A program made the translations under genes and the position numbers. From Dokdonia pacifica (GTDB taxonomy: Bacteria; Bacteroidota; Bacteroidia; Flavobacteriales; Flavobacteriaceae): a DNA stretch of 64,000 bases. A model generated the notes under the pieces. It worked only from the letters and a program-made list of their open reading frames with translations. It had not been told where the DNA came from and made no database searches. This document shows, one piece after another, positions 4,300 to 60,087 of this stretch. The stretch is from contig NZ_FZNY01000002.1 in the NCBI RefSeq assembly GCF_900188275.1, forward strand, positions 124,001 through 188,000, in the 5' to 3' direction. Numbering within the stretch: position 1 is the stretch's first letter; the number at the start of each line of letters is the position of its first letter.

Positions 4300-4366
4300 A
4301 TACGCTTTCGCGAAATCGAACTTGTGAGATTCACGATCATAGTGAGAGTAAAGCGATAAAGCGTAT
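4300..4366. repeat. Split or degenerate copy of the dispersed palindrome
   Basis: TATACGCTTTCGCGAAA starts at 4300 and matches the dispersed palindrome with one core mismatch (CTTTCGCGAAAT at 4305-4316). About 40 bp later AAAGCGTAT (4358-4366) supplies the missing right flank, so ATACGCTTT and AAAGCGTAT form outer arms. The segment between them holds two small overlapping inverted repeats (GTGA/TCAC type). It lies between the convergent 3' ends of a glycosyltransferase and a peptide gene. Confidence 0.6.
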
Positions 4367-4391
4367 GCTTCTACTTACTCAATAAAAAATA

Positions 4392-4429
4392 AAAGACAGC
4401 AATTAACTCATTGATTAATTACTGTCTTT
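4392..4429. terminator. Bidirectional rho-independent terminator
   Basis: AAAGACAG and CTGTCTTT, continued inward by AATTAA/TTAATT with one mismatch, form a hairpin with a short loop. It has A- and T-rich flanks on both sides and sits between convergent genes, just past the stop of the minus-strand peptide gene. Confidence 0.75.
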
Positions 4430-4448
4430 ACTTAAATTATATGCTATT

Positions 4449-4682
4449 TTATCTATGAGCTTCATGTCCACAAGAGGCGTCCCAGCCTAGGCTTCCCCAA
4501 GCATTTACCCATGCAGTAGCAGATGCTTCGCTTTGATTACCATAAAATGTATGGCTAACACCATCTTTAGTTCGGATACACGCAAAGGCATGATCTTCAG
4601 AAATAATTCCTCCGTTGGTATTTTTTAATTGAGCATTATTTAATTCTTTAACGCCATTTAGATTTACAATGTTCTTTAACAT
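4449..4682 (-). CDS. Double-glycine leader peptide precursor (copy 1)
   Basis: The 77-aa product starts MLKNIVNLNG and its first 25 residues end in NTNGG, a bacteriocin-type double-glycine leader. The 52-residue core contains two cysteines, in ACIRTK and ASCG, and is rich in Trp, Ala and Gly. From ACIRTK to ASCG it is 37 of 39 residues identical to the neighbouring copy at 4808-5035, so the core is conserved while leader and tail drift. Leaders of this kind are normally cut by a C39 peptidase-transporter during export; none is in this window. Product, activity and any modification are unknown. A bacteriocin or signalling peptide is an inference from the leader. Confidence 0.75.
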   Translation of the reverse strand: MLKNIVNLNGVKELNNAQLKNTNGGIISEDHAFACIRTKDGVSHTFYGNQSEASATAWVNAWGSLGWDASCGHEAHR

Positions 4683-4807
4683 ACGTATTTAATTTAAAAA
4701 TTTATGATACTGGAAACATTTAGAGACACTTACAGCTTATGTCTATTATTATAAGAAATTCAATGATATGTTCCTTTTGAAAGAATTCTTATCCTTTGAA
4801 CATTATT

Positions 4808-5035
4808 TTATTGTTGATGCTGACTGCCACAGGAAGCATCCCATCCTAAACTCCCCCATGCATTTACCCAAGCCGTTGCAGAACCTTCACTTTGATTTCC
4901 GTAAAAAGTGTGACTAACTCCGTTTTTAGTTCGGATACATGCCCAACTACCTCCTGAAGCTCCACCAAGAGTGTATTTTAATTGTTTCTTATTTAATTTC
5001 TGAGCACCATTTAATTCTAAAATGTTTTTTAACAT
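4808..5035 (-). CDS. Double-glycine leader peptide precursor (copy 2)
   Basis: The 75-aa product starts MLKNILELNG and residue 25 is the second glycine of YTLGG. The core (50 residues) has ACIRTK, SHTFYGNQSE, WVNAWGSLGWD and ASCG, matching copy 1 except at two positions over 39 residues. The C terminus differs (SQHQQ here, HEAHR in copy 1). It lies 125 bp upstream of copy 1 on the same strand, and the pair looks like a tandem duplication. A terminator at 5143-5180 separates it from the upstream gene, so it should have its own promoter in 5036-5142, but I see no clear -33/-7 pair. Confidence 0.75.
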   Translation of the reverse strand: MLKNILELNGAQKLNKKQLKYTLGGASGGSWACIRTKNGVSHTFYGNQSEGSATAWVNAWGSLGWDASCGSQHQQ

Positions 5036-5142
5036 AATTGTTTGATTTTAAAGATTACATCTTGAAATTAAATAAGAATTAAATTATGAACAATAGTAAA
5101 TTCATATTTGCCTATGAAAAGTGTAAAAGCGTATTTAAATAC

Positions 5143-5180
5143 AAAAGCCATCAGCATATGTTACTATACTGATGGCTTTT
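5143..5180 (-). terminator. Rho-independent terminator
   Basis: AAAAGCCATCAG pairs perfectly with CTGATGGCTTTT around a 14-base loop, followed by A/T-rich sequence. It is placed 24 bp past the stop of the minus-strand gene ending at 5205. Confidence 0.8.
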
Positions 5181-5204
5181 ACGTGTGAATTATTAACTAA
5201 GCAC

Positions 5205-5723
5205 TTACTGTTGTTCCATAATTACATAATAATATGCAATTCCAATAGGTCTACCTACTCCTACAAATCCGGATTTTACAAGAACAGCATTGGTGTTTCC
5301 TGGATATAGTTTTTGAAGTTTACTTACGGCATCAGCTATAGCAACATTAATATCTGTAGAATTGTATGCATAACCGACTACTTGATTATTAGCTGTTTGA
5401 GTAAGTTCTTGTGGAACAGCTCCTTTCTCATCCATTAAGTCGCGTACAGGAATTTTCTGCGTACCAGATTCAGTTTGGAAATACACAAAATCTAGATCTG
5501 TAGCATATGGAATTGTTTTGGTAACTGTATATGGAAAGTATCCAATAGCACCACATGGATCTCCAACCACCATAAATATTGGAGGATAGATTTGTGCTGC
5601 AGATTGTTCAATTCTAATTTTGCAATATCCGTCTTCATGACCTTTTGCTACAATGGTTACTTTTGGATCATTTCCAATTCGATATGCAAATACTTCTTCT
5701 GGGTATAAAACTTGACTACTCAT
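5205..5723 (-). CDS. Hypothetical protein, 172 aa
   Basis: I do not recognise a family. The protein has no signal peptide and no membrane segment. It reads as a compact soluble protein of mixed beta strands (KVTIVAKGHEDGYCKIRIE; FVYFQTESG) with a helical stretch near residue 130 (INVAIADAVSKLQKLYP) and a C-terminal strand-rich end (GIAYYYVIMEQQ). It contains two cysteines. It lies directly upstream of the two double-glycine peptides on the same strand but is separated by a strong terminator, so a functional link is only suggested by proximity. Confidence 0.65.
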   Translation of the reverse strand: MSSQVLYPEEVFAYRIGNDPKVTIVAKGHEDGYCKIRIEQSAAQIYPPIFMVVGDPCGAIGYFPYTVTKTIPYATDLDFVYFQTESGTQKIPVRDLMDEKGAVPQELTQTANNQVVGYAYNSTDINVAIADAVSKLQKLYPGNTNAVLVKSGFVGVGRPIGIAYYYVIMEQQ

Positions 5724-6026
5724 AATATTAGGTGTTTTAGTGTTATGTTCTTACTCTATTTATATTGGTTTTTCAGAATCCACCAACTCTGTAATAGAAA
5801 TGAAGTAGCTACTTAATAATCACATTTCAATTACATTGTAAAATTCTGATTATCAGTACTTTTTATTAAGAGCAAAAACCCCTAATTATAGAAATCACGT
5901 ATAAACACTTGAAAACAAGGTATTTACACTCGTATTGTAATTAGTTAATATAAAACACAAAAAACCTCTAAAGAAGCTACTCTTTAGAGGTTTTACTATA
6001 AAATTGTTTTTAAAATGTGTGTATGC
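5724..6026. other. Intergenic region of about 300 bp
   Basis: The region is very AT-rich. It holds the terminator of the SPFH gene at 5961-5994 and, on the minus strand, the presumed promoter of the 172-aa gene. A run reading TTAGGGGTTTTTGC on the minus strand near 5873-5887 stands out as G-rich in this context. I could not match it to a known operator. No further gene is visible. Confidence 0.5.
5961..5994 (-). terminator. Rho-independent terminator
   Basis: AAAACCTCTAAAG pairs with CTTTAGAGGTTTT around an eight-base loop. It lies 32 bp downstream of the stop of the minus-strand SPFH gene. Confidence 0.8.
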
Positions 6027-6842
6027 TTAGTTATTCCCTAAAATCAATGGGAGTCCACTATCGCCAGAACCTACTACCACTACTTTAGCATTAGGTGATT
6101 CAGAAAGTTTTAAAGTTGCTTCTATTCCTTTGTCTTGAAGAATCTTATCTGTAAGTGATGCACTTAGTATTCTGTTTGCATCTGCTTTTCCTTGTGCTTC
6201 AATACGAACTTTTTCTGCTTCTTTTTGAGCCGTAACTAATCTAAACTCATACTCTAAAGATTCTTGCTCTTGTTTTAGTTTACGTTCAATTGCTTCTTTT
6301 ATAGTAGGAGGAAGTGTAACATCACGTATTAATATATTATTCAATTGGATATATTGATCCTTCACAATTTTTTCTGTTTCTTGAAAAATTTCTTCTTGAA
6401 TAGCATCTCTTTTACTACTGTATAATTGTTCTGGTGTATAACGCCCTACCACACTACGAGCTGCGCTACGAATTGCTGGTTGAATAATTCTCTCTAAATA
6501 ATCTTTTCCTTTTTGATTATGAAGTTTTCCTATATCTGCAGTTACAGGATTGTACCATGCCGTTGCATCAATTTGAATTTCAAGACCATTTGACGAAAGC
6601 ACTCTCATTTCTTCAAATAATTGCTGCTGACGTGTTTCATAATCAATTACCTTATTCCAAGGAGCAATTAAATGAAATCCAGGTCCTAAAGGTTCTTTAT
6701 CAGGATCTACTCCATCTCCTAATGTTTCATATAATACGCCTGCGTGACCTGCATCTATAGTAACAGCAGATTTTGCTAATACTACAATGACAAGAATTAG
6801 TATGACAATAATAGGTAATCCAATTTTTGGTAATTTATCCAT
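6027..6842 (-). CDS. Prohibitin-like SPFH/band 7 membrane protein
   Basis: The 271-aa protein has one N-terminal membrane helix (about residues 7-24), then an SPFH/band 7 domain starting at VTIDAGHAGVLYE and including GPGFHLIAPW, which is typical of prohibitins. The second half is a charged coiled coil (ERKLKQEQESLEYEFR, AQKEAEKVRIEAQGKAD) that should drive ring-like oligomers. The short C terminus is VGSGDSGLPLILGNN. Such proteins form membrane scaffolds and often work with FtsH-type proteases, but none is adjacent. It is monocistronic by position, with a terminator downstream and a 28-bp gap to the upstream gene. Confidence 0.85.
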   Translation of the reverse strand: MDKLPKIGLPIIVILILVIVVLAKSAVTIDAGHAGVLYETLGDGVDPDKEPLGPGFHLIAPWNKVIDYETRQQQLFEEMRVLSSNGLEIQIDATAWYNPVTADIGKLHNQKGKDYLERIIQPAIRSAARSVVGRYTPEQLYSSKRDAIQEEIFQETEKIVKDQYIQLNNILIRDVTLPPTIKEAIERKLKQEQESLEYEFRLVTAQKEAEKVRIEAQGKADANRILSASLTDKILQDKGIEATLKLSESPNAKVVVVGSGDSGLPLILGNN

Positions 6843-6870
6843 AATCTATTTTTTTAGTTAATTTTTAGTT

Positions 6871-8904
6871 TTAAGTAAGACCATTGTATTTGCGCATAAA
6901 CCACTCTATTCCAAGAAGCAATGCTAAAACGGCTAAGAGCCATTTCCAATCTATTAAAGGTACAACATTTTCGGTGCTTTTTTGAACAGGTCTATATCTA
7001 CTGTCTTCTACTAAAGAAGTTATTAATTGATCAATATTTGAAATAATGTATTGTGTACCATTTGTATTTGTTGCTACTTGTGATAAGGCAGCTACATTAG
7101 CATTTAGAAACTGTTGTTCAACTTCAAAGGGAACAATGGTAAATGATCCTGATCTGGCTAACCCTTGATCTTGTACTGTCACTGTAAAAGAATAATCACC
7201 AGGCACAAGATTACTTAAGTCAATTTCATAGGCATTACGCTGTAATAGAAAAGGAGCATCATAAACATCTTCAGTTTCTTTATTTATTACTTTAATGGTT
7301 AGTGCTGCTCTATTATCAAACACATAGTTTTTATCAAAGTATTGTGCATAAAGTTTTACAGAACCATTGCCATAATAAAAAGAGTCATAATCTAAGTTAA
7401 GCCTACTCTTACGTTTATTTGAAGCGGCATATTGAATTAAGTTATCTATAAAATTATCAAAAGATTCAAAACTTCGAGTATCAACATAGCTTTGTGCTCT
7501 CCATCGCCAGAGACCTTCTCCAAAAATATATACTCCTCTTCTACCATTTTGATCTGTAGTAGCTAATAAAGGAGCATCTGTAGTAATGGCACCTATTTTT
7601 TGATATAAAGCAATGTCTGCCTCCGTTTTTAACGTGATATCCCCAAAACTCGTTTTTAAGGGAGGGAAATCTGAAAAGTTAAGATCATTTAAAACAAACG
7701 TAGAAAAATTAGGATTACTAATCCCTTGGACATCTTCATCTTGTGCTGTCACTTCATGAAATACCTCTGTTTGCAATTGATTAAGAATATTCCAATCTGT
7801 TTTGGCCCCTGTAATGGTCATGCTATTTTTTCCTAAAGTTTCTAGTTCCCTATAAACAGGTTGAAAAAGACCATTGGGTTGATACAAAATCACTAATTGG
7901 TACTCATTTAATGTTCCAATAGCCTCAGCAGGTTTTGCAAAAGTAGCAGTACGTAACCTATTACTTTCTATGCTCTTTTTAAGCATCCCAATATCTGGAT
8001 GAGTAATATCTGAGACAATAAGCACATTGGTTTTTTGATCAATAATTTCTACAGCAAAATTCTTGCGATTATTATTTTTATTTTTTTCGTTTTCTATAGA
8101 TTGAAGACTTACAGTATATTGTTGTACTCCAACACTATTTGCAGGAATTAGCGCCGTAATGATTTGTGATTTTTTCTGATTAGAAAAATTAATATTTTGC
8201 TGATATACTGTAGTATTTCCAGATCGTATGGTTAATCTAGATGAAACATCATTGCTCCCATTATAATTTGTAAAGACTTCTACTGGAAATTTATTGTTGA
8301 TATATGCGTATCTATTTACATTTACCTGACTTATAATAAGATCGTCATATACAAGAGTATCACCTACAACAACTGGATATACATTCTGATTAAAGTTTTT
8401 ACTCGTGTATTCAAATGCTTCTCCAAATGTTTGATTTCCATCAGATACCAGTATTACAGGCGCGACATCATTTCTATATAAAGAATTAAATGATGAAAAA
8501 ACAGTTGCAATATTTGTTTGCCTTTCGGCGAAATCTAATGAATCTAGTGTTTCAACATTGGTTCCGAATCCAAAATACTGAATATCAAAGGCGTCATTTA
8601 AGTTTTTGCTTTCGCGAAAGCGTACCAATGCATCTTCTACTTGCGTATCGTACTCTAAATACCGAATACTTGCAGAATTATCTATAGCAACTGCTAAAGA
8701 GGGTTTTTCAGTATAAAAAGTTTGCTGCTTGTATTTAGGATTAATCAATAATAGTAATAATCCAAAAACAGTACAAAAGCGAAATAAAGCATATATTTTA
8801 TTTCGCTTTGTTTTATATGTAGCCTTATAAAAATATTGAAATACAGCAACTGCTAAAGCAACAATCGCAGCTCCAATAATTAATAATAAGGTTGTACTTG
8901 TCAT
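6871..8904 (-). CDS. Membrane-anchored protein with von Willebrand factor A-like domain
   Basis: The 677-aa protein has two N-terminal membrane helices (about 5-25 and 40-55) and one near the C terminus (LLAVLALLLGIEWFM). Between them lies a large presumably periplasmic part. It opens with a VWA-like fold: a DxSxS metal site appears as D74-N-S76-A-S78, followed by VILVSDGNQTFG. Similar proteins occur in Bacteroidetes near or within aerotolerance-type loci, but no batABCDE genes are here. Codons for VRFRES (about residues 88-93) are an exact copy of the dispersed palindrome at 8608-8622. Function is unknown. Confidence 0.7.
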   Translation of the reverse strand: MTSTTLLLIIGAAIVALAVAVFQYFYKATYKTKRNKIYALFRFCTVFGLLLLLINPKYKQQTFYTEKPSLAVAIDNSASIRYLEYDTQVEDALVRFRESKNLNDAFDIQYFGFGTNVETLDSLDFAERQTNIATVFSSFNSLYRNDVAPVILVSDGNQTFGEAFEYTSKNFNQNVYPVVVGDTLVYDDLIISQVNVNRYAYINNKFPVEVFTNYNGSNDVSSRLTIRSGNTTVYQQNINFSNQKKSQIITALIPANSVGVQQYTVSLQSIENEKNKNNNRKNFAVEIIDQKTNVLIVSDITHPDIGMLKKSIESNRLRTATFAKPAEAIGTLNEYQLVILYQPNGLFQPVYRELETLGKNSMTITGAKTDWNILNQLQTEVFHEVTAQDEDVQGISNPNFSTFVLNDLNFSDFPPLKTSFGDITLKTEADIALYQKIGAITTDAPLLATTDQNGRRGVYIFGEGLWRWRAQSYVDTRSFESFDNFIDNLIQYAASNKRKSRLNLDYDSFYYGNGSVKLYAQYFDKNYVFDNRAALTIKVINKETEDVYDAPFLLQRNAYEIDLSNLVPGDYSFTVTVQDQGLARSGSFTIVPFEVEQQFLNANVAALSQVATNTNGTQYIISNIDQLITSLVEDSRYRPVQKSTENVVPLIDWKWLLAVLALLLGIEWFMRKYNGLT
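8608..8622. repeat. Dispersed palindrome, exact core, inside a gene
   Basis: GCTTTCGCGAAAGCG with exact core at 8609-8620. It is read on the minus strand as CGC TTT CGC GAA AGC, giving RFRES. Confidence 0.9.
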
Positions 8905-8929
8905 ATAAATATAAGTCTTCTAATGACTT

Positions 8930-9676: not shown

Positions 9677-9804
9677 ATATGTTGGTCGTTTAATCTGTAC
9701 AATGTGTGTCGTATTGCCAAGAAACAATAAAATACATTAAAAGACGTATTTCATCAATTAATTGGTAGTATCAAATATAAGGAAATGCGTAAGGGCTTAC
9801 ACAA

Positions 9805-12830: not shown

Positions 12831-12850
12831 ATGCTTTCGCGAAAGCGTAT
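12831..12850. repeat. Dispersed palindrome, exact core, within the lpx operon
   Basis: ATGCTTTCGCGAAAGCGTAT with exact core at 12834-12845. It lies in the gap between the end of lpxA and the start of efp, both on the minus strand. Confidence 0.9.
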
Positions 12851-13650: not shown

Positions 13651-13659
13651 ATATGTATG

Positions 13660-17403: not shown

Positions 17404-17423
17404 TTGCTTTCGCGAAAGCGTAT
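17404..17423. repeat. Dispersed palindrome, exact core, in a divergent promoter region
   Basis: TTGCTTTCGCGAAAGCGTAT with exact core at 17407-17418. It sits in the 103-bp gap between the HD-domain gene and porX, which are divergently transcribed, so it lies within or beside both promoters. Confidence 0.9.
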
Positions 17424-21850: not shown

Positions 21851-22228
21851 ATGCGTTTATTACATCGAATAGGTTACTATTTAGGTGGTTTCTCATTAGG
21901 CTTGATCGTTTTAGCCTTTTTCTTTAGTGGAAAAAAAACAAGTTGTGCATACTTTCCTCAAGCACGTGTTTCAAAAAACATTAATACAAAAATGTATACG
22001 CTTTCGCGAAAAGCGCACCAGTCTTTATCTCAATTAAAATTAGATACAATAGCTGTTAATGACGTATTGCAAAAAGGAGAAGTTGATTTTGGCGAAAGCC
22101 AACCCAGAAAAGAACCTTGTAGCGAATATAGCATCTATGGTAAAACTCAAAAAGAGCAAGATCTCAAACTAATTCTTATAAATTGTGAAGAAATAGTACA
22201 AGTATTAGATGTGCATCTGGTAAAATAA
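21851..22228 (+). CDS. DUF4258-like membrane-anchored protein
   Basis: The 125-aa protein has one N-terminal membrane helix (YYLGGFSLGLIVLAFFFSG), then a small domain with LQKGEVDFGESQPRKEPC and EYSIYGKTQKEQDLKLILINC, resembling DUF4258. It starts 3 bp after ald and is probably in the same transcript, a pairing I recall from related genomes. Residues TLSRKA (about 52-57) are encoded by a near copy of the dispersed palindrome at 22001. Function is unknown. Confidence 0.7.
   Translation: MRLLHRIGYYLGGFSLGLIVLAFFFSGKKTSCAYFPQARVSKNINTKMYTLSRKAHQSLSQLKLDTIAVNDVLQKGEVDFGESQPRKEPCSEYSIYGKTQKEQDLKLILINCEEIVQVLDVHLVK
21998..22015. repeat. Dispersed palindrome, near copy, inside a gene
   Basis: ACGCTTTCGCGAAAAGCG differs from the consensus by one extra A after the centre. 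It is read on the plus strand as CTT TCG CGA AAA, giving LSRK. Confidence 0.7.
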
Positions 22229-25744: not shown

Positions 25745-26869
25745 CTACAACGTTATCGTAAGTTGCTCATCTATTATTAAATGTCTTATATCGGGTTTCC
25801 CTATCACATTTTCTTGTAATAGTTTTTTAATTTTTAATCCCGAAACATCGATAACACGATGTCCAAACATAGAAGATGTTGCTTCTTTGGAAGCAAATTC
25901 AGGAATAAACTTGATTTTATCACTAGTCAATTTTTCTACATACAGAATTCCTATATCTCCATCTAATGAATTTTTAAATAGGATATCACAATAACACTTT
26001 TGATGCTCAGGAATATTAAAATACAAGGTTTCATCAAAAACTGTATTATTGAAAGTATTTTCAATGGCAGTTATTATTGCAATAAACATAAATTGCCTTG
26101 TTATCTCTCGATCATAATCATTAGGATAATGACCCGCTTCAAACAGTATGGTTGGAGTGCCGTCAGCCTGAAAAGTGTCTCCTGTACAATTATGATTAAA
26201 ACCATCATCGTAAAGCCCGATATTTTTAGATAAGTACGGTGATAATGTATTATACATATGTGTAATCACTTGCATAGACCGCTTTCGCGAAAGCGTAATA
26301 CTCCTTTCTTCATCTGCCGAAGGGGCTAAAAACGAAAGGATAGACGGTTTTCCAGTATCTTCAAAACCATAAATAGTGCGTTGTCCATGAAGATTGAAAC
26401 AAAAATCTGGAGCAAAATCTTTATAAATATCCCAAAGTAATCTACTCTCTGGTTGAGATTTGTTTTGAGCATCTCTATTTAAATCTACATTATTTGCATT
26501 TATACGTGTATATCCATGCGCTCCATCTGGATTTAAAATAGGAATAAAACAAAGTGTACAAGAAGATAAAATAGTATCAAAGAGTGGTAATTGATCTGTG
26601 GTTTGAAAGGCATTAAAAAGGTCAAAAACTGCTTTAGTTGTAGTGCTTTCGTTTCCATGCATTTGTGACCAGAGTAATATTTTAATTTTACCAGTACCAA
26701 TTGTAACTGTATGGATAGGTCTTTTTTCTACAGAAAGTCCGCGTTGTTTTACTTCAAATTCAGAAGGTAATTTATCTAATAACTCACGAATAGATTCCAA
26801 ATGAATATAACGACCAAAGAGTTGTTTTTCGTGATTTTTTTTATGCCAGTTTAAAAGTGTCTCCAACAA
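25745..26869 (-). CDS. M14-family zinc carboxypeptidase-like protein
   Basis: The 374-aa protein has the M14 metal site HxxE in SQMHGNES, then LNPDGAHGYTRINANNVDLNRD (substrate-binding Asn-Arg), the second zinc His in FNLHGQRT and a possible catalytic Glu in ILFEAGHYPND. No signal peptide is seen, so it is cytoplasmic and may trim peptides or act on amino acid conjugates. Residues ITLSRKRS are coded by an exact copy of the dispersed palindrome. It is divergent from the XRE regulator gene, with shared operator-like sites between them. Confidence 0.8.
   Translation of the reverse strand: MLETLLNWHKKNHEKQLFGRYIHLESIRELLDKLPSEFEVKQRGLSVEKRPIHTVTIGTGKIKILLWSQMHGNESTTTKAVFDLFNAFQTTDQLPLFDTILSSCTLCFIPILNPDGAHGYTRINANNVDLNRDAQNKSQPESRLLWDIYKDFAPDFCFNLHGQRTIYGFEDTGKPSILSFLAPSADEERSITLSRKRSMQVITHMYNTLSPYLSKNIGLYDDGFNHNCTGDTFQADGTPTILFEAGHYPNDYDREITRQFMFIAIITAIENTFNNTVFDETLYFNIPEHQKCYCDILFKNSLDGDIGILYVEKLTSDKIKFIPEFASKEATSSMFGHRVIDVSGLKIKKLLQENVIGKPDIRHLIIDEQLTITL
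26281..26298. repeat. Dispersed palindrome, exact core, inside a gene
   Basis: GCTTTCGCGAAAGCGTAA with exact core at 26282-26293. It is read on the minus strand as CTT TCG CGA AAG, giving LSRK. Confidence 0.9.
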
Positions 26870-30306: not shown

Positions 30307-30332
30307 TTATACGCTTTCGCGAAAGCGTATAA
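30307..30332. repeat. Dispersed palindrome, fullest copy (26-bp perfect palindrome)
   Basis: The 26 bases are a perfect palindrome with exact core at 30314-30325 and flanks TTATACG and CGTATAA. It defines the consensus of the family in this window. It lies just after a terminator and before the M19 dipeptidase gene. Confidence 0.95.
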
Positions 30333-30416: not shown

Positions 30417-31736
30417 ATGAATAAATCAATCATCCTTGTGGCGATCTTACTTTTGTCTATCGCTTGTAAAGAAAGCAATACTGAACAGCCAGAAACTACA
30501 ACCCCTATGACGGAAGCAGAAATACTTACCAAAGCTAAAGAGATTCATAAAAATGTAATGACACTAGATACCCATTGCGATATCAATGTCAAGAACTTCA
30601 CTGACTCTATTAACTATACGCAAAAACTTACATCACAAGTAAATCTTCCAAAAATGAACGAAGGAGGGCTTGATGTGCCGTGGTTTATTGTATATACAGG
30701 ACAAGATTCTTTAAATACAAAAGGATATGCAGCTGCTTATGAGAATGCAATGTCAAAATTTGACGCAATTCACAAGCTTTGCGAAGAGATTGCTCCAGAT
30801 CAAATTGAACTTGCTACTACTTCTGAAGAAGCAAGACGTATATGGAAATCTGGAAAAAAAGTAGCTATGATTGGTATTGAAAACGGATATCCTGTAGGTG
30901 AAGATATTGGGAATGTGAAAAAGTTTTATGATCTAGGAGGACGCTATATGTCTTTAGCACATAATGGTCATAGCCAATTAAGTGATAGTAATACTGGGGA
31001 AGCTGATGATGTATGGTTACATAATGGTTTAAGTGATTTAGGAAAGGAAGTAATTGCCGAAATGAATCGTGTAGGAATGATGATAGATGTATCGCATCCT
31101 AGCAAGGAAGCTATGCGTCAAATGATTGAACTTACAAAGGCACCTATTATCGCATCACATTCATCGGCACGTGCACTATGTGATCACAGTCGTAATCTAG
31201 ATGATGAGCAATTACAATGGATGAAGGAAAATGGCGGTGTAGTACAAACGGTCGCATTTAAAAGTTATTTGAATACAGAAAAATTTGAAACACGTGTAAG
31301 TCATGAGGTAGAAATAGCCAAAGAGATTGCAGATTCTATGGGAGTTACCTGGTTAGATGGAAGAGCAGCAGTTATGGCATTAGATAATGAAGCTAGAGAA
31401 AAATATTTTGATTTCCTAGGAACAATGGCTGCCATACGTCGTGAAAAAATGAAAACTATGGATGACCTCCCTCCTGCTGTAAATGTGGCTGACTTTGTAG
31501 ATCATATCGATTATCTTGTTGAAAAAATGGGATTAGAGCACGTAGGTATCTCTTCCGATTTTGATGGTGGAGGTGGTATAGAAGGCTGGGAAGATGCTTC
31601 AGAGACGATGAATGTAACTATAGAACTTGTACGCCGTGGCTACACAGAAGATCAGATTGAAAAACTGTGGAGCGGTAATCTTTTACGTGTACTTGATGAA
31701 GTGCAAGCCATCGCTCAAGAAATACAAAAAGGATAA
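30417..31736 (+). CDS. Membrane dipeptidase (M19) lipoprotein
   Basis: The 439-aa protein has a lipoprotein signal with the lipobox LSIAC (Cys17). The M19 domain follows: the metal site HxD in TLDTHCD near residue 50, GIENGYPVG with the bridging Glu, SLAHNGHSQLSDS, IDVSHPSKEAM and IASHSSARAL with further His ligands, and SDFDGGGG near the C terminus. It probably cleaves dipeptides at the cell surface or periplasm. It is followed closely by a small membrane protein gene. Confidence 0.92.
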   Translation: MNKSIILVAILLLSIACKESNTEQPETTTPMTEAEILTKAKEIHKNVMTLDTHCDINVKNFTDSINYTQKLTSQVNLPKMNEGGLDVPWFIVYTGQDSLNTKGYAAAYENAMSKFDAIHKLCEEIAPDQIELATTSEEARRIWKSGKKVAMIGIENGYPVGEDIGNVKKFYDLGGRYMSLAHNGHSQLSDSNTGEADDVWLHNGLSDLGKEVIAEMNRVGMMIDVSHPSKEAMRQMIELTKAPIIASHSSARALCDHSRNLDDEQLQWMKENGGVVQTVAFKSYLNTEKFETRVSHEVEIAKEIADSMGVTWLDGRAAVMALDNEAREKYFDFLGTMAAIRREKMKTMDDLPPAVNVADFVDHIDYLVEKMGLEHVGISSDFDGGGGIEGWEDASETMNVTIELVRRGYTEDQIEKLWSGNLLRVLDEVQAIAQEIQKG

Positions 31737-33606: not shown

Positions 33607-33622
33607 TACGCTTTCGCGAAAA
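33607..33622. repeat. Dispersed palindrome, near copy
   Basis: TACGCTTTCGCGAAAA has core CTTTCGCGAAAA, one mismatch, at 33611-33622. It lies between the helicase start and the end of the upstream minus-strand gene. Confidence 0.7.
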
Positions 33623-41995: not shown

Positions 41996-42017
41996 ATACG
42001 CTTTCGCGAAAGCGTAT
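41996..42017. repeat. Dispersed palindrome, exact 22-bp copy, next to a stop codon
   Basis: The 22 bases are a perfect palindrome with exact core at 42001-42012. Its last base is also the last base of the TAA stop (42017-42019) of the minus-strand cyclase gene. It lies between two convergent genes. Confidence 0.92.
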
Positions 42018-43399: not shown

Positions 43400-46300
43400 A
43401 TGATTCGTAAACTATTTTATGGAGTATTCCTCCTATGCGTAATTTCTTCATACGCTCAAACTAACAAAAGGGTAAAAATTTCAAACATTACACAACAACA
43501 AGTATTACAATTAAGTAATGTAGGTATTGACATGCATTGTGGGGTTTATCAAGATGGCAATGACCTAATTTTGGAATTAACGCCTTATGAACAAGATCTT
43601 ATATCATCTTTAGAACTTAACTCACAAACACTTATAGAAGATCTTTCTATATTTTATGCTGAGCGAGCAATCTCAGATATGGATATTGCTACGACAACAC
43701 TAAATACAATGAAATCTAGACAACCAGAACCATTCCAACAAAGGTCTAGTGTTGCATCAGAAAGCATTACTAACATTGGACAGTATACCGGTGAGAATGA
43801 GATTAATTGGACGGTACCACAAAATTTTAATTTAGGAAGCTATGCAGGCTCGTTAACGCTAGATGAAGCACTCGCAGAACTAGACGCTATGCATGCGCAA
43901 TATCCAAATCTAATTACTGCACGTATAGCGGCAGCTACAGAGACCACCATCGAAGGCCGTACTGTGTATTATGTCAAAATATCTGACAACCCAGATATAG
44001 ATGAAGATGAACCAGAAACACTTTATAACTCATTGATTCATGCTAGAGAAATTTCTAGCCTCATGAATCAGTTATATTATATGTGGTATCTGTTGGAAAA
44101 TTATGATACAGATCCAGGTATCAAAAACTTAATAGATCATCATGAGCTTTATTTTATTCCTATATTAAATCCAGATGGGTATCAATTTAATATTGATAAT
44201 AACCCAAATGGTGGAGGTTTACAACGCAAAAACAGAAGAGTAACTAGTGGTTGTGGTGGGGATAATGATGGTGTCGATTTAAATCGAAATAGCGGTTACT
44301 TCTGGAATAATGGCGGCGCTTCTGGAAATCCATGTGCGCAAGACTTTAGAGGTACAGGACCTTTCTCAGAACCTGAGTCCCGTATTGTACGTGATTTTGT
44401 ATTATCAAGAGATTTTAAAGTAGCATTAGATCATCATGCGTTTAGTAATATACTATATCATTCGTATTCAAGTATTGGTAGTGCTACAGGAAGAGAAGAT
44501 GAATTTGCTCAATATGGGCATGACATGAGTTATTATAATAGATACGGTTATGGAGCTGTAACACAAACGGGACCGCCCGTAGCAAGTGGTAGTCATATTG
44601 ATTGGTTATTAGGGGGTACTATACCGGATGGAACTGGATCTACTGGGTCTGGAAAAAATATTATTTCATTCAGTCCTGAAAATGGTAGTAGTGCAGAAGG
44701 GGGCTTCTATCCTTCTCCATCTAATATCCTACCAATTGCACAACGGGCTATGCGTGTAAATTTATTGGCTGCCTATTACAGTGGTAAATATGCAAAATAT
44801 AAAGATTTAACACCCTCCAGTCTCTCTGCTATAACTGGGCAATTGCAAATAGGAATAGAATATCTAGGACAAACCCTCTCTCCTATTACAGTAACGGTTA
44901 CTCCTATTTCTACTAATATAAATAGTATAGGAACTTCACAGACCGTAAATCTTACAAAATTAGAACAAGTAGGCTTGAATTTCTCATATCAGTTAGATCC
45001 TGGAGTACAATCTGGAGATATGATTCAATATGAAGTAACAGTAGCAAATGAAGACTATACACTTTATCAAGCCATTATTGAAAAACAGTATACTCCTACA
45101 ATACTATTTGTAGATAATTCGGATGTTAATGGGCTTTCTAATTGGGCCAATAATGGTTGGGAATTAACAACCGATACTTTTTCAAGTGCTAGTGCCATCA
45201 CAAATACTTCTACTAGTTACGGAAATAACATTTTTGAAACACTTACGCTTGTAAATCCAATAGACTTATCGGGATCACAGCAAAGTGTTATTCAATTTTT
45301 TGCAAAATGGGATATAGAACGTGATTTTGATTTTGCGCAATTGGAAGGATCTATAGATGGCGGGGCTTCATGGACACCATTAATAGGGAAATATACTAAG
45401 CCAGGAAGTCCATCTGACACAAATCCGTATAGTCAAAAATCAAGTTCGGACGAAGCGCATCAACCAGATGGAGAGCCTTTATATGATGGAGACACACAAG
45501 ATAAATGGTCTTTAGAAGAGATTGTTATAGATGCAACAAACAATAGTTTTATGCAAGGCGCTCCCAATGCTTTAGTACGATTTGTTTTTGATTCGGATAG
45601 TTCCAATCTCACCAGCGGTTATACAACCACTTTTGAAGGGTTTTCGTTTGAAGGTTTTCAAATCGTAAATACCATTCCGATGCCACTCAGTACACAGTCT
45701 ATTACATTTCCAGCTATTCCGGATCAGATTACGACTGCAGGGCCTATTACACTAAATGCTACAGCAAGCTCTGGACTTCCTGTGAGTTATAGTATCACAT
45801 CTGGTCCAGCAACCATAAGTGGTAATTTACTAGTATTAGATGGAACTGTTGGTATTGTAACTGTAGAAGCTACGCAAGATGGTAATACTTCATTTGAAGC
45901 GGCAACACCGGTATCTATTTCATTTACAGTTAATCTTCCTGCTTGTGATACTGAGATTCCTCAAAATGTCATAGTAAACGCTATTACAGCCACTACTGCT
46001 ACGGTACAATGGGATGCAACTAATGGGGTTTCATATGAAGTACGCTTTCGCGAAAGCGGAAACAACATATTTCAAACAATAAATACAACAGCATTACAGG
46101 TAGATTTGGCAAACCTGACAGGAGATACCGTTTATGAAGTAGAGGTTAATAGTAGCTGTTCAGATGGATCTACTTCTGCTTATAGTACTCTTGTTAGCTT
46201 TACTACATTAACGCCTCCTGTGACCTATTGTAATGCTTCCAGCAACAATGCTACCGAAGAGTTTATAAGCAGGTTTGAACTCAACACGATTAATAATAGT

Positions 46301-48363: not shown

Positions 48364-48385
48364 ATATGCTTTCGCGAAAGCGTAT
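48364..48385. repeat. Dispersed palindrome, exact core, intergenic
   Basis: ATATGCTTTCGCGAAAGCG and TAT follow one another, with exact core at 48369-48380. It lies between the carboxypeptidase terminator and the PHP phosphatase start. Confidence 0.9.
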
Positions 48386-54534: not shown

Positions 54535-55674
54535 CTATCTTGATAGTAGGTCAAAGATAACCTTTTCTATTCTTTGTCTATCTTTTGATATTAAATTTGA
54601 ACCCGAAGGTACGCATAATCCGTTTTTAAATAGACGAAATGCAACATTTTCTCCATAAAAAGCACAGTTTTCAAAAATAGGTTGCATATGCATGGGTTTC
54701 CAAAGAGGTCTAGATTCTATATTTGCTTTCGCGAAAGCGAGACGAATATCCTCTCTCGTAACCCCATTGGTTTTTTCAGGATCTACTAAAATTGCTGATA
54801 ACCAATGATTGCTGTAAAAATCTTCATTAGGTTCTGTAAATACAGTAATACCATCGTATTTTTCAAAAAGCTCTTGATAAAAAGAATTCATCTGTCTACG
54901 AAGGTTTATGTGTTTGTCGAGCACTTCCATTTGTCCTCTACCAATTCCTGCAGATATATTACTTAACCTATAGTTATAGCCTATATTACTATGTTGATAA
55001 TGCGGAGCATCGTCACGAGCTTGCGTTGCTAGAAATACAGTATTCTTTTTTGCTTCTTCAGATGGACAAACAAGAGCCCCACCTCCACTCGTAGTAATGA
55101 TTTTATTTCCGTTAAAAGATAAAACACCATAAGTACCAAAAGTACCACAGTTTCTTCCTTTATAGGTAGAACCTAATGCTTCGGCACTATCTTCTACAAC
55201 AGGGATTTCATATTTATTGGCAATTGCATGTATCTCGTCTACTAAATACGGCATACCATATAAATGTACCGCAACTATTGCTTTTGGTTTTTTTCCTTTT
55301 GCTATACGATCAGTAATAGCTTCTTCTAAATATTTTGGAGAAATATTCCACGTTACGTCTTCACTATCTACAAAAACTGGAGTAGCCCCTAGATATGTAA
55401 TAGGATTTGCGCTTGCAGAAAATGTAAATGATTGGCAAATAACTTCATCACCTTGGCCAACACCGCATTGTAATAATGCAAGGTGAAGTGCGGCAGTCCC
55501 AGAGCTCAATGCAGCTACAGGGTTATTATTAAGATAGGTACTTAAATCGTTTTCAAAGCCATTTACATTAGGTCCTAATGGAGCGATCCAATTTGTATCA
55601 AAAGCTTCATTTACATATTTCTGTTCTGCTCCTCCCATATGAGGAGAAGAAAGCCATATTTTAGCTTCACTCAT
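54535..55674 (-). CDS. DegT/DnrJ/EryC1-type sugar aminotransferase (PglE-like)
   Basis: The 379-aa PLP enzyme puts an amino group on a keto sugar. The PLP lysine is Lys191 in SFNGNKIITTSGGG, preceded by EDSAEALGS with the Asp that holds the PLP nitrogen. NYRLSNISAGIGRGQ is the usual signature. Codons for LAFAKANIE are an exact palindrome copy at 54726. The start overlaps the PglD-like stop (TAATG). It would aminate C4 of the 4-keto sugar made by the PglF-like enzyme. Confidence 0.9.
   Translation of the reverse strand: MSEAKIWLSSPHMGGAEQKYVNEAFDTNWIAPLGPNVNGFENDLSTYLNNNPVAALSSGTAALHLALLQCGVGQGDEVICQSFTFSASANPITYLGATPVFVDSEDVTWNISPKYLEEAITDRIAKGKKPKAIVAVHLYGMPYLVDEIHAIANKYEIPVVEDSAEALGSTYKGRNCGTFGTYGVLSFNGNKIITTSGGGALVCPSEEAKKNTVFLATQARDDAPHYQHSNIGYNYRLSNISAGIGRGQMEVLDKHINLRRQMNSFYQELFEKYDGITVFTEPNEDFYSNHWLSAILVDPEKTNGVTREDIRLAFAKANIESRPLWKPMHMQPIFENCAFYGENVAFRLFKNGLCVPSGSNLISKDRQRIEKVIFDLLSR
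54722..54739. repeat. Dispersed palindrome, exact core, inside a gene
   Basis: TTTGCTTTCGCGAAAGCG with exact core at 54726-54737. It is read on the minus strand as GCT TTC GCG AAA GCA, giving AFAKA, the third reading frame of the repeat. Confidence 0.9.
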
Positions 55675-56321: not shown

Positions 56322-56323
56322 AA

Positions 56324-56923
56324 TTACCCCTTAAAACTTTCTGTAGTTGCTTGTCCAGAAGAATTAATCCCTTCTCGCAAAAACACTTTCTTTACTGTTA
56401 ACATTAATATTTTTATATCTAAAAGAAATGTTTGATTATCTACATACCAAACATCCAATTCAAATTTTCTTTCCCAACTTATTAAATTTCTACCGTTTAC
56501 CTGTGCCCACCCAGTTATTCCAGGCTTAACATGATGCCTTCTAGCTTGTTCTTTTGAATATAGTTCTAAATATGAAGGAAGTAATGGTCTAGGTCCAACA
56601 ATACTCATTTCACCTTTTATCACATTAAATAATTGTGGGATTTCGTCTAAAGACATTTTTCTAATGATCCGACCAATAACTGTCAATCGATCTGCATCTG
56701 ACAGTAAATTGCCGTCAGCATCTCGCTCATCTGTCATAGTTTTTAGCTTGATAATATTAAAGATACGACCATTCTTCCCTGGACGTTTTTGCACAAAAAA
56801 TGGAGTTCCAAAATTAACAATACTTAGACCTATAATTGAAAAAATTAGTATAGGACTTACTAATAACAGTACAATTATAGCAGTTACAATATCTAATAAT
56901 GGTTTAAAGAAATTTGGGTACAT
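56324..56923 (-). CDS. Undecaprenyl-phosphate sugar phosphotransferase (PglC-like)
   Basis: The 199-aa protein is a small monotopic initiating transferase. It has one N-terminal hydrophobic hairpin (DIVTAIIVLLLVSPILIF), FFVQKRPGKNGRIF, the catalytic MSLDEIPQLFNVIKGEMS with the Asp-Glu dyad, and the SIVGPRPLLPSYL motif. It moves a phospho-sugar from UDP to the lipid carrier and so starts the repeat unit. Its size and neighbours point to the PglC subgroup. Confidence 0.9.
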   Translation of the reverse strand: MYPNFFKPLLDIVTAIIVLLLVSPILIFSIIGLSIVNFGTPFFVQKRPGKNGRIFNIIKLKTMTDERDADGNLLSDADRLTVIGRIIRKMSLDEIPQLFNVIKGEMSIVGPRPLLPSYLELYSKEQARRHHVKPGITGWAQVNGRNLISWERKFELDVWYVDNQTFLLDIKILMLTVKKVFLREGINSSGQATTESFKG

Positions 56924-56953
56924 ATTTCTTATTCTTACTACAAAGTAACACTT

Positions 56954-58201
56954 CTATTTTTTATCACACAAGCTTTGTATATGATTTATATATTGTTGAG
57001 CTAAAATAGATCTATCGAAATGAATTTTCGCATAATTATATCCACGAATTCCACTTTCAATTAATTCTTCCCTATTTTGAAGTATTAACCTTATTTTGGT
57101 TTCTATATCTTCAATATTTTCTGGTTCTACATATACACCACAATCTGCTTTCTCAATTAATTCCCTTGATACTCCATCTATAGCTAAGAAAACGGGGCGT
57201 TTACAAGACATATAATCAAAAGTTTTATTAGAATAGATCGTTTTAAAGGTATCTACTTTCTTTAAAACTGAGGCTCCCATATCTGAAGCAAGAATATATT
57301 TAAAAACATCATTTTTTGGGACAGCGTTTCTAAAAATAACATTATTAAGGCCTCTATTTTTAACTTCATCCTGTAACATCTGTTTTTGCATTCCAGAGCC
57401 TATTAACTGAAAAATTACTGGAGTATCTTGTAGTTTACTAGCTGCGTCAACTAACTGTATTAAATGATTTGCAACACCATGAGCTCCTACATAGGTAATT
57501 ACAAACTTCCCTTCTAGTCCTAACTCTTTTTTAAAGGCATCTGCATCAAAGTCACTATTTTGAATTTGTTCTGCTAGTGTAAAATCTGCGGCATTTGGTA
57601 TAAATAAAATTTTCTCTTGAGAAACACCTTTTTCAATAAGTTTTGTTTTAAAAGCTGGTGTTAAAACATTTATTAGTGCAGATTTTTTATAAATAAAATT
57701 CTCAAACCAATATGCCATTTTAATAATGAGTTTATTTTTCAAAACTCCAGTGTCTATTGCAGATTCAGGCCATAAATCTCTTACCTCAAAAACAATTGGA
57801 ACACGCTTGAAAATTGAAAGTATAAAAGCAGTAATTCCAACAAATAATGGCGGAGATGTTACGACTATAGCATCATACTTCTCTCTAGTTTTAAACAAAC
57901 CTGCAATTGTAGAAGAAAAGACAAATGAGAAATACCCCCATAGTCTTCCTAAAAAATTTGTGTTATATGATTCAGAAACGTGACATCTGTATACATCTAC
58001 TCCATCATAAAACCCAGTATCTTTATAAAAAGATTTTCCTTTATATTTTTCAGGTTTTTTTCCAGTTGCATAATTAACCATTCCGGATATGACATCAATC
58101 TTCACTCCGTCACTTGTCCATGCTTTTACCATTTCATTAAATCTAGAACCTCCCCCTTCATTTTTCTCCAGAAAATACTGATGAATTAATAATATGCGCA
58201 T
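56954..58201 (-). CDS. Glycosyltransferase family 4
   Basis: The 415-aa GT-B enzyme has an N-terminal domain with the glycine-rich EKNEGGGSRFNEM loop and a C-terminal domain with FVITYVGAHGVANH, then SDMGASVLK and KTFDYMSCKRPVF. It resembles WbuB-type transferases of O-antigen and capsule clusters. It would add the second sugar to the lipid-linked sugar made by the PglC-like enzyme. It starts 2 bp after the heparinase-like gene. Confidence 0.85.
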   Translation of the reverse strand: MRILLIHQYFLEKNEGGGSRFNEMVKAWTSDGVKIDVISGMVNYATGKKPEKYKGKSFYKDTGFYDGVDVYRCHVSESYNTNFLGRLWGYFSFVFSSTIAGLFKTREKYDAIVVTSPPLFVGITAFILSIFKRVPIVFEVRDLWPESAIDTGVLKNKLIIKMAYWFENFIYKKSALINVLTPAFKTKLIEKGVSQEKILFIPNAADFTLAEQIQNSDFDADAFKKELGLEGKFVITYVGAHGVANHLIQLVDAASKLQDTPVIFQLIGSGMQKQMLQDEVKNRGLNNVIFRNAVPKNDVFKYILASDMGASVLKKVDTFKTIYSNKTFDYMSCKRPVFLAIDGVSRELIEKADCGVYVEPENIEDIETKIRLILQNREELIESGIRGYNYAKIHFDRSILAQQYINHIQSLCDKK

Positions 58202-58203
58202 AA

Positions 58204-60087
58204 TTAATTAGAACTCTTTATTTTGATGGTTGTAATAAGCTTGCCAGTTGTATCTTTAAATGACAGTTGCAAAGATGGGATTTTAACTCCATAATAACTG
58301 GAATACCAAGCAGTATTTTTTAACAGTTCTACTGGGTTACCATCTCTATTTACGGCTGTAATCTCTATAAGATCTTCTATATCAGGATTAATATGCCAAA
58401 ATTGTTCTATAAAATCTCCTTTCTTTAAAGTCACTTCATCAATCACATTCCATTCTAATCGATTTTTAATTTTATCGACCTTACGTTTATGATTATATCC
58501 ACCTATATGTTTGAATGCTTCTATTTGTCCTTCAAAAACATAGTTATTAGTAGTTTCTGAAAGATTACCTATTGCGTTTTTAATCCAATTATACCATATA
58601 AAACGACTTCCCTTTAACATTTGATCTTTTCCATTCACACTTATCGTATTATGGCCTTTTGTACCCATAAAAAAATCAAGCTCTTCTTTAGAAGTATTAT
58701 ACTTATAACTCCCTGCATCTCTTAAATAATTGATTCCATTTACCCAAATATCTAAATGTAGATTATCAGCCTGTGCTGGTCGATCTTTATACGAACCGCA
58801 TTTAATAAATGTTTTAACACTCTCTTCTTGAATAATATAATATCCGCTTTCGCGAAAACTAAAGATACCATCTTTCCTAGTAGGATCTATTTTAAGGTCT
58901 TGTAAACCGTACCAACCTTGACTTTCAGAAGATTGTCTAACCGTTCCCGAGAGTACCGCCCGTAGGTCATCTAATTGTGATTGATAATTGCGATAATCAT
59001 CATCGGTTAATTTGAAAAATAATGCCCCATCATTAGATCCATAATTAGGCAACTGTTTTGAGACAGGATCTTGAGAAGCTTCTAAAAAATCAAGTGATTT
59101 CTTTGCTTTTTCATATACTGCTTTTGTAAATGTATCATTATGCAGTTGTGATAAACGGATTCCCCAAGTAAGTAATTGTACAGCTACTCTATGATAATTC
59201 ATAGAAAACTGAAGAAAAGTACCATCGTCATATATCTGATAATCAATTTCCTGTTCAAACCATTTTTTCCCTTGTCTACTCCATTTTTTAGTTTCAGGTA
59301 TAAAAGGGAAAAGTAATCCAGATATGTAAAGCATTAAAGTCTCTGTAATTGCGTGATTATTACGAACAGCAATTCTAGAGAAATTAATATTATTATAAAC
59401 GTGATGCAATTGCCAGTAAATACTATTTAAAATAGCCTCAAAACGCTCTGAAGTTAAATGTGTAGAGTGTTTATAATAATACAATGCAAAAGTCCAATTA
59501 AGAATACGCAAGCTAATCTCTTGACTACACTTATAATTGGGACCTAAATTAATTGGATTCTGATTTATAAAGCTTTCTATCTCTGAAAAAACAAATGCTG
59601 CTTGATTACTATCATTATGATAATCATGTCTTATAATATCATATAAGTATGAAAACCGTGCTTTCTCCCATACATATTTGATATCACCCGCTTCTGCAGA
59701 AAGGTCTTCAATTTCCGACCAGTGTTTTGTAATATCATAACGATAACCCGTTGCAGAGTTAACAATCCAATCATACGCTGTTCCTAAATCATATTTTTTA
59801 CTACTAAAGAAGGTATAGGTTCCGTTTTTGCTTTCGCGAAAGCGTGACGCTAATACATCATTTTGTTTTTTATCTACAGGGATAGCATCTTTATCATCAA
59901 AAAAGAATAAAGGGGTATTGGCACGCCATGATGCTAACGTAATAAAGGATTTAGAATCTGGAGAGATTGGAAACTTATTCTTATGTATGCCTAACTTTGA
60001 AGACACCATATACTTCACTCTAAAAGTGACGTAACGGATCCCCATATTATTAAATAGGTCAATTAATTTCCGTAGTTTATTCAACAT
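58204..60087 (-). CDS. Heparinase II/III-like protein
   Basis: The 627-aa protein has an N-terminal alpha/alpha toroid (NNHAITETLMLYISGLLFP, NYHRVAVQLLTWG) and a C-terminal beta-sandwich with QADNLHLDIWVNG, GTKGHNTISVNGKDQM. These match heparinase II/III. In biosynthetic clusters, relatives act on the nascent polymer or epimerise it. There is no signal peptide, which is unusual for a lyase. It contains one exact and one near palindrome copy, both giving (R)FRES. It overlaps the MDR-Gfo gene by 11 bp. Confidence 0.83.
   Translation of the reverse strand: MLNKLRKLIDLFNNMGIRYVTFRVKYMVSSKLGIHKNKFPISPDSKSFITLASWRANTPLFFFDDKDAIPVDKKQNDVLASRFRESKNGTYTFFSSKKYDLGTAYDWIVNSATGYRYDITKHWSEIEDLSAEAGDIKYVWEKARFSYLYDIIRHDYHNDSNQAAFVFSEIESFINQNPINLGPNYKCSQEISLRILNWTFALYYYKHSTHLTSERFEAILNSIYWQLHHVYNNINFSRIAVRNNHAITETLMLYISGLLFPFIPETKKWSRQGKKWFEQEIDYQIYDDGTFLQFSMNYHRVAVQLLTWGIRLSQLHNDTFTKAVYEKAKKSLDFLEASQDPVSKQLPNYGSNDGALFFKLTDDDYRNYQSQLDDLRAVLSGTVRQSSESQGWYGLQDLKIDPTRKDGIFSFRESGYYIIQEESVKTFIKCGSYKDRPAQADNLHLDIWVNGINYLRDAGSYKYNTSKEELDFFMGTKGHNTISVNGKDQMLKGSRFIWYNWIKNAIGNLSETTNNYVFEGQIEAFKHIGGYNHKRKVDKIKNRLEWNVIDEVTLKKGDFIEQFWHINPDIEDLIEITAVNRDGNPVELLKNTAWYSSYYGVKIPSLQLSFKDTTGKLITTIKIKSSN
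58845..58860. repeat. Dispersed palindrome, near copy, inside a gene
   Basis: CGCTTTCGCGAAAACT has core CTTTCGCGAAAA at 58847-58858 with one mismatch. It is read on the minus strand as TTT CGC GAA AGC, giving FRES. Confidence 0.7.
59829..59846. repeat. Dispersed palindrome, exact core, inside a gene
   Basis: TGCTTTCGCGAAAGCGTG with exact core at 59831-59842. It is read on the minus strand as CGC TTT CGC GAA AGC, giving RFRES, in the same gene as the near copy about 1 kb away. Confidence 0.9.

Follow-up and report, generated by a model that had tools for sequence, protein, structure and literature searches.

A 64-kb window of the Dokdonia pacifica genome, the whole stretch of DNA analysed here (G+C content 0.329), contains 11 exact copies of the palindromic 12-mer CTTTCGCGAAAG and four copies with one mismatch, distributed between and within genes (Table 1). 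A sequence-only reading of the same letters had listed 15 copies (11 exact, four near), and all of its coordinates were correct on recount; the fullest copy, which it had described as a perfect 26-bp palindrome, is one. It had also judged the 12-mer to be far above chance, in agreement with the 19 matches at up to two mismatches in the window, against 1.34 expected and with none of 100 shuffles reaching 19.

Table 1. Copies of the palindrome in the window, with their setting and their state at the aligned place in other sequences (G and L numbers are our handles).
Copy	Position	Setting	State elsewhere
One mismatch, CTTTCGCGAAAT	4305–4316	Between genes	Right arm broken by ~45-bp gap relative to G312
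Exact 14-mer	8608–8621	Within ORF 6871–8904 (FRES reading)	One mismatch in G312; exact in G314
Exact	12833–12846	Between genes	Exact in G312; one mismatch in G314
Exact	17406–17419	Between divergent genes	Exact in G312 and G314
One mismatch	22001–22012	Within ORF 21851–22228 (LSRK reading), without Pfam match	
Exact, 16-bp palindrome	26280–26295	Within zinc carboxypeptidase (M14) gene	Exact in G312 and G314
Fullest copy, perfect 26-bp palindrome, TTATACGCTTTCGCGAAAGCGTATAA	30307–30332	Upstream of peptidase M19 gene (30417–31736)	Exact 14-mer in G312; absent at same place in L018, L021, L043
One mismatch	33611–33622	Between genes	Orthologous copy exact in 9 other aligned Dokdonia loci; one mismatch in further genome G300
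Exact	36610–36623	Codons 9–13 (AFAKA) of short-chain dehydrogenase gene	Exact in 6/6 aligned relatives
Exact, 22-bp palindrome	41996–42017	Between convergent genes; without terminator-like call	
Exact	46043–46058	Within large M14/MAM secreted-protein gene (FRES reading)	Exact in G312
Exact	48368–48381	Between genes	Exact in G312
Exact	54725–54738	Within DegT/DnrJ aminotransferase gene (AFAKA reading)	Exact in G312; two mismatches in G314
One mismatch	58847–58858	Within heparinase II/III-like gene	Exact in G312 and G314
Exact	59830–59843	Same heparinase II/III-like gene as 58847–58858	Two mismatches in G312; one in G314

The window's own genome (5.52 Mb) holds 903 copies of the 14-letter form GCTTTCGCGAAAGC, with none of its reversed control, and 933 copies of the exact 12-mer, about one per 5.9 kb, against 0 for reversed controls; the count is thus neither near chance nor a clustering in this window only. 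All 18 same-genus genomes hold 369–905 copies of GCTTTCGCGAAAGC, without a rise with genome size, which upholds the genome-scale system of sites proposed from the window alone. Two further genera of Flavobacteriaceae hold 408–664 copies, the rest of the sampled family 0–19 copies in 294 of 299 genomes, and the rest of the phylum sample 0–4 copies in 217 of 218. When the longer named loci (8 kb or more) were scanned for over-represented palindromes, GCTTTCGCGAAAGC was repeated in Dokdonia loci only, and the palindrome string was not found in the literature searched. A second palindrome, CCGATAGCTATCGG, tried as a "dialect" in 299 family genomes, is thinly spread (93 genomes, at most 59 copies) and is therefore a different thing from GCTTTCGCGAAAGC. 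Copies are also carried by phages and by a metal-resistance island. Low-copy clusters in other genera were considered as a mobile system of their own and rejected. Of the 18 fetched stretches, 15 share DNA with one another; the two that were searched with Pfam both contain metal-efflux genes, and one contains RteC, with the copies lying within genes.

Spacing is more even than chance in four of five stretches, representing three of the four genomes tested (two stretches came from the window's own genome). The coefficient of variation of the gaps in these three genomes is 0.49–0.68, compared with about 1.0 for random placement, and only 0 to 2 of 2000 random sets, which kept the gene/intergenic share of copies, were as even as observed. 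Gaps shorter than 1.5 kb numbered 7, 1, 0, and 2, against 26, 11, 6, and 8 expected. For G190, from another genus, evenness was not significant (P 0.076). In four of five stretches, the distance from one-mismatch to exact copies exceeds that of random placements (P 0.012–0.026). Along a complete chromosome, density is uniform, with no trend visible by eye in 21 sampled stretches (5.48 copies per 20 kb, variance 2.76). Among 303 exact copies, 174 lie within genes and 129 in the 11% of DNA that is non-coding, a density about sixfold higher between genes. The intergenic copies are distributed over tandem, divergent, and convergent gaps as expected from the number of bases in each, and no preference for promoters or terminators was found. 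The two copy-free gaps that were read, of ~23 and ~17 kb, appear to contain variable genes.

Conservation between species was counted in 322 directional comparisons in which both 500-bp flanks were anchored; a count that requires aligned 30-bp flanks hides absent copies. The anchored comparisons comprise 236 exact copies, 33 with one mismatch, 28 with two mismatches, and 25 absences, and the 56 with a mean anchor identity of at least 90% comprise 52 exact and 4 one-mismatch copies. Base identity is 0.93–1.00 in the core, compared with 0.70–0.93 at 15–40 bp away, and exact copies outnumber one-mismatch copies by 230 to 44. The 25 absences trace to about five places, some places being occupied in one species and empty in another. 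At several of these, the occupied and empty intervals (57/57, 75/72, 103/100, 104/99, and 115/117 bp) differ by only 0–5 bp, and the sequence was therefore replaced, not inserted; upstream of the M19 gene the two lengths differ more. Identity within 1–3 kb of copies, a possible sign of recombination, showed no consistent rise in five genome pairs; a clear drop beyond 3 kb was seen in one pair, G300/G303.

The consensus is symmetric over at least 20 bp, with both halves constrained alike. The core is flanked by T then A, no flank is repeated beyond the consensus, and the flank consensus differs slightly between genera. To judge from its fit with these flanks and with the symmetric consensus, a symmetric, dimeric protein binding duplex DNA may be the reader. 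Most likely, the palindrome tags self-DNA, either for the exchange of genes or for the handling of the chromosome, and is recognized by a putative protein. By analogy with known tags, we tentatively propose, at a little short of even chances, that TACGCTTTCGCGAAAGCGTA, with its core GCTTTCGCGAAAGC, is a genome-wide palindromic uptake/recombination tag, which we favor over a nucleoid-protein site. From the observed distribution, spacing, conservation, consensus symmetry, and taxonomic limits we infer both this function and a dedicated receptor: a putative dimeric DNA-binding protein would read TACGCTTTCGCGAAAGCGTA as duplex DNA, and DNA bearing a copy would be taken up or recombined more readily, in the manner of DNA uptake sequences. 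If copy-bearing DNA is preferred, one copy per ~4–5 kb stretch would suffice, and exact copies would be maintained by selection or recombination drive. Such a tag would explain the even spacing, the least-disturbing placement, the exactness of the copies, and their absence from two variable gene clusters; since the motif is palindromic, it has no orientation.

Turning to the machinery, the secretin family PF00263 was detected in seven of the 18 Dokdonia genomes, including the window's own. The single-contig genomes G299, G300, G301, and G303, in which no secretin was found, hold 757–899 copies; a Neisseria-type machine is therefore not required. ComEC is encoded in all 18 genomes, but also in 10 of 14 control genomes, and is weak as proof because it is so widespread; inspection of the comEC neighborhood gave no receptor candidate. 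Riemerella, placed in Flavobacteriaceae by the authors, is described as transformable, with R. columbina preferring its own DNA (PMC7965970, PMC8459023), and under identical conditions Flavobacterium johnsoniae is described as non-competent (PMC7965970); on the latter account, competence is not general in Flavobacteriaceae. A fuller version of the proposal is possible, though rather doubtful: an orientation-free palindromic tag, of which we know no earlier example in Bacteroidota. Its reader would be a putative dimeric receptor coupled to pilus-independent competence, its presence in three genera would reflect at least two evolutionary steps, and the phages, like the metal-resistance island, which would be transferable, would bear the tag of their host. 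Counting against a tag are the spacing in G190 and the lack of a consistent rise in identity near copies, which raised recombination might predict; the phage-borne copies, which an intracellular role would account for as well, are likewise counted against it.

The nearest alternative, which we consider unlikely but a serious contender, is a site for a chromosome-organizing protein, a nucleoid or segregation factor of which a dimer every 4–5 kb would bridge, insulate, or tether DNA. The palindromic core with its symmetric flank consensus suits a dimer, and the even spacing and similar density along the complete chromosome agree with such a role. The sites of ParB, Noc, SlmA, and MatP are likewise palindromic, each a 13–16 bp dyad read by a dimer, and of similar size (for the Dokdonia palindrome the dimer is putative). 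However, those sites number tens per genome and are regional, whereas the Dokdonia palindrome has hundreds of copies at similar density across 21 stretches. Phages and the metal-resistance island bear copies that a chromosome scaffold would not obviously need, and, of the sampled genera, only three have high copy numbers, although chromosome organization is universal.

A recombination signal of the Chi type, which a helicase-nuclease would recognize once a double-strand break has formed, is improbable. The density of E. coli Chi is comparable to one per 4–6 kb, near that of the palindrome, and phages carry copies; Chi sites, however, are short, asymmetric, oriented, and read on one strand, whereas the Dokdonia consensus is symmetric with equally constrained halves. 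Less probable again is a motif whose upkeep depends on repair bias and an orphan DNA methyltransferase, like HIP1, which is also a genome-wide palindrome limited to some lineages. A target of 14–20 bp is larger than usual for methyltransferases, and HIP1, with the different sequence GCGATCGC, spans 8–10 bp; even spacing would be left unexplained. HIP1 of cyanobacteria is described as tied to methyltransferases (PMC4390886). In a search that covered C5 methylases, PF00145 was found in eight of the 18 Dokdonia genomes and not in the other 10, among them the window's own and the single-contig G300, G303, and G304, which disfavors the C5 form of the methylation role suggested by the sequence-only reading.

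Mobile palindromic repeats, whether REP/RAYT or the self-copying miniature element also suggested from the letters, are very improbable: the copies are dispersed, denser between genes, and at some places present in only one of the species compared, but they also lie within genes and mostly stay exact in place, RAYT (Y1) transposase was found in four of the 18 genomes, the window's own being among the 14 without it, no flank is repeated beyond the consensus, and at several places empty intervals are not shorter by one palindrome length. An equally faint prospect is an RNA-level signal, a terminator or stem-loop: the palindrome could fold, and left–right complementarity in Dokdonia exceeds independent expectation at the fourth flank position between genes (53 vs 36.5 of 106) and, more weakly, at the fifth (47 vs 38.7) and at the first within genes (94 vs 83.6 of 130), but the remaining positions are near or below expectation, intergenic copies track gap type by base share, T-then-A flanks are the reverse of a terminator tail, none of eight terminator calls between 30 and 49 kb coincides with a copy, and an Rfam search of the window gave no match.

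To our knowledge, only two bacterial families have an experimentally established genome-wide tag that influences gene exchange, and why such tags arise is still debated. If the palindrome is an uptake tag, it would add to these a third case, this time palindromic, in a marine genus that has cultured members. Drive and selection could then be weighed against each other in an independent system, DNA uptake by Bacteroidota would become easier to approach, and phages and mobile islands could be assigned to their host of origin. Should the palindrome instead be a nucleoid site, an exact copy every ~4–5 kb would represent a new mode of chromosome organization.

Compared with the DUS of Neisseriaceae and the USS of Pasteurellaceae, the proposed uptake/recombination tag differs in being longer, in belonging to another phylum, and in its machinery, DUS and USS being used with secretin pili, whereas no secretin was found in 11 of the 18 Dokdonia genomes. 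It is also palindromic, whereas uptake sequences known so far are non-palindromic according to PMC1939737. On most measures, however, its profile agrees with theirs. The hallmarks that it matches are those reported for the neisserial DUS (PMC2397512) and the Haemophilus uptake sequence (PMC1939737): a short motif in great genomic excess with hundreds of exact copies, even spacing (four of five stretches, three of four genomes), and an intergenic excess of a highly conserved motif (236 of 322 exact, 25 absent). Absence from recent DNA is a likeness suggested only, from the two gaps of ~23 and ~17 kb. Outside the core the flanks are weak, as in DUS and USS, and they differ slightly between genera in the way that dialects do.

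The palindrome CTTTCGCGAAAG, a 12-mer lying within the 14-mer GCTTTCGCGAAAGC, is a genome-wide site that is mostly evenly spaced and strongly conserved. All copies located by the sequence-only reading (11 perfect, four with one mismatch in 64 kb) proved exact in position, and its fullest copy is a perfect 26-bp palindrome; allowing up to two mismatches, the window holds 19 matches to CTTTCGCGAAAG against 1.34 expected. That reading had proposed a genome-scale system, and counting across the window's own 5.52-Mb genome (G000), where the window lies at C19:124001-188000, returned 933 exact 12-mers, 903 exact 14-mers and none of a reversed control. No print of CTTTCGCGAAAG or of three longer or shifted forms was found in the literature, nor was a Bacteroidota motif of this kind described in the titles and abstract openings searched, most subscription journals and bioRxiv lying outside both searches.

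Coordinates of individual palindrome-associated features
Feature	Stretch	Positions	Observation
Fullest copy	Window	30307-30332	
Split copy	Window	4305-4350	Palindrome split by a ~45-bp gap relative to the Dokdonia genome G312, far arm beyond the gap
comEC	L385	8330-8343	Palindrome at identical codon position in two Dokdonia species
comEC	L386	1340-1353	As for L385

Among 80 named loci, all relatives of one window protein, the palindrome occurs in 10 of the 10 labelled Dokdonia (L016–L019, L021, L023, L031, L032, L043 and L046) and is absent from the other 70. All 18 genomes of the genus carry 369–905 copies; the count does not rise with genome size between 2.6 and 5.5 Mb, so that density is lower in the large genomes. 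Of 299 sampled family genomes, five from three genera (G000, G206, G010, G242 and G190) have at least 400 copies, three have 16–19, 53 have 1–9 and 238 have none, and across 218 genomes of the phylum G000 alone is high, the runners-up having four. In an RpoB tree of 30 genomes, one of the other high-copy genera (g191) adjoins Dokdonia, followed by a nine-copy genome, and the second (g11) lies on a separate branch of uncertain place; given the starred branches, the high-copy label must have changed at least twice.

Stretches from four genomes gave the consensus T-A-C-GCTTTCGCGAAAGC-G-T-A around the core TTTCGCGAAA, with weak T/A preferences farther out; flanks in g11 lack the A preference beside C and also prefer T at the fourth position. 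In 1.23 Mb there are 230 exact cores to 44 with one mismatch, and all six control palindromes tried there lack exact copies. At most flank positions, agreement between left and right bases is close to that expected of independent half-sites, and a duplex-binding dimer is therefore a better fit than a hairpin. The exceptions are confined to Dokdonia: the fourth position of intergenic copies (53 agreements of 106, 36.5 expected) and, more weakly, the fifth intergenic position (47 versus 38.7) and the first position in genes (94 of 130, versus 83.6).

Within 1.63 Mb, 174 of 303 exact copies are genic and 129 intergenic; with a coding share of 0.89 by a simple gene call of our own, intergenic density is about six times the genic, the placements being partly dependent through inclusion of orthologous stretches. 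In G190, just 6 of 34 copies are intergenic. The 126 intergenic copies classified by gap type (77 tandem, 31 divergent, 18 convergent) track the respective base shares of 62%, 23% and 16%. Genic copies are read in the AFAKA frame in 91 of 174 cases, and 53 of the 174 lie in the first fifth of the gene. No terminator called in the part of the window between 30 and 49 kb falls on a copy, and an Rfam search of the window gave no match.

Spacing was compared with 2000 random placements that kept the gene/intergenic share (CV 0.96–1.02). Observed gap CVs were 0.65 (G206), 0.68 and 0.49 (two stretches of G000), 0.76 (G190) and 0.51 (G010), and the random sets at least as even numbered 0, 2, 0, 152 (P 0.076) and 0, respectively. 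Gaps shorter than 1.5 kb numbered 7, 1, 0, 3 and 2 in the same order, against 26, 11, 6, 7 and 8 expected. In four of the five stretches, the distance from one-mismatch copies to exact ones is greater than in random sets (P 0.012–0.026; 19, 14, 2 and 5 such copies), with no such displacement in G190 (P 0.32); by this measure they behave as if they were sites too. In G299, a single-contig genome of the genus, 21 stretches of 20 kb average 5.48 copies (range 1–8, variance 2.76), with no trend along the chromosome by eye.

Projected onto G312 (82% identical) and G314 (77%), both Dokdonia, 9 of 12 and 6 of 9 window copies are exact. Between pairs 78–95% identical, 117 directional projections gave 100 exact copies, 13 with one or two mismatches, four with gaps and no substitution losses, a count that hides absences because it takes only copies with alignable close flanks. 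We therefore recounted with 500-bp flanking anchors: of 1469 copy-by-genome combinations, 1142 were unanchored and five non-collinear, and the remaining 322, which count pairs in both directions and species of shared ancestry, comprise 236 exact, 33 one-mismatch, 28 two-mismatch and 25 absent. At mean anchor identity of at least 90%, 52 of 56 are exact, four have one mismatch and none is absent. The 25 absences trace to about five places, at several of which occupied and empty intervals are nearly equal in length, indicating replacement in place rather than clean insertion; upstream of the peptidase M19 gene that follows the fullest copy, the lengths differ more. Identity is 0.93–1.00 in the core versus 0.70–0.93 for bases 15–40 bp away.

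G000 has two site-free gaps, of ~23 and ~17 kb, which on our reading of the translations hold variable genes, among them a surface-polysaccharide-like cluster. Other genera supplied 18 low-copy stretches, drawn from 13 genomes; 15 of these have DNA in common with at least one of the rest, and Pfam searches of nine proteins from two of them found efflux pumps, a multicopper oxidase and metal ATPases, with RteC in one. A metal-efflux island common to several Flavobacteriaceae genera (L104–L121) carries Dokdonia-type palindromes within its genes in otherwise palindrome-poor hosts, so the mark appears to have been carried out of its host genera on DNA; in several genomes a pair lies 933 bp apart.

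At least 120 viral stretches contain sites, with host-like flanks at 25 of 133 sites among the matches listed. Several of these are on low-G+C phage contigs encoding a head maturation protease, a portal or a tape-measure protein with an integrase, the integrase being seen solely beside the tape-measure protein. Phage entries L175, L158, L144, L166, L170 and L236 (the last three a single contig) hold two to four host-like palindromes each, and one phage palindrome sits within the head maturation protease gene.

Other repeats were also seen. A second palindrome, CCGATAGCTATCGG, found in L039 (21 kb) and in 93 of 299 family genomes at up to 59 copies, is thinly spread over the family, unlike the Dokdonia motif; no print of it was found in the literature searched. 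Among other short repeats (the L041/L057 entry), an Aquimarina intermedia locus has 21 copies of AATTCTCCTCT and a Bizionia locus nine of AGAGGATTAGA.

Turning to known kinds of site, the RAYT transposase of REP elements occurs in 4 of 18 genus genomes, and a C5 methylase in 8 of 18 and not in the window's own. A tag for DNA uptake or recombination is our tentative interpretation, held at somewhat short of even confidence; the main rival, a nucleoid protein site, we consider less likely. ComEC is present in all 18 genus genomes and is widespread elsewhere too; a secretin is found in seven, the window's own included.

Neisserial uptake sequences are described as highly conserved, in permissive locations, spaced to match conversion fragments and missing from recent genes (PMC2397512), and Haemophilus uptake sequences as 65% genic and evenly spaced (PMC1939737). 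The palindrome's profile agrees with these descriptions on most measures, the two site-free gaps suggesting absence from recent DNA, and departs from both systems in two respects, palindromy and no secretin requirement. Natural transformation in Riemerella is reported to require ComEC, DprA, ComF and RecA together with several proteins whose function is not known, and R. columbina to favour its own DNA (PMC8459023, PMC7965970); F. johnsoniae was non-competent under the same conditions (PMC7965970). On these gene requirements, a missing secretin need not rule out uptake in this phylum.
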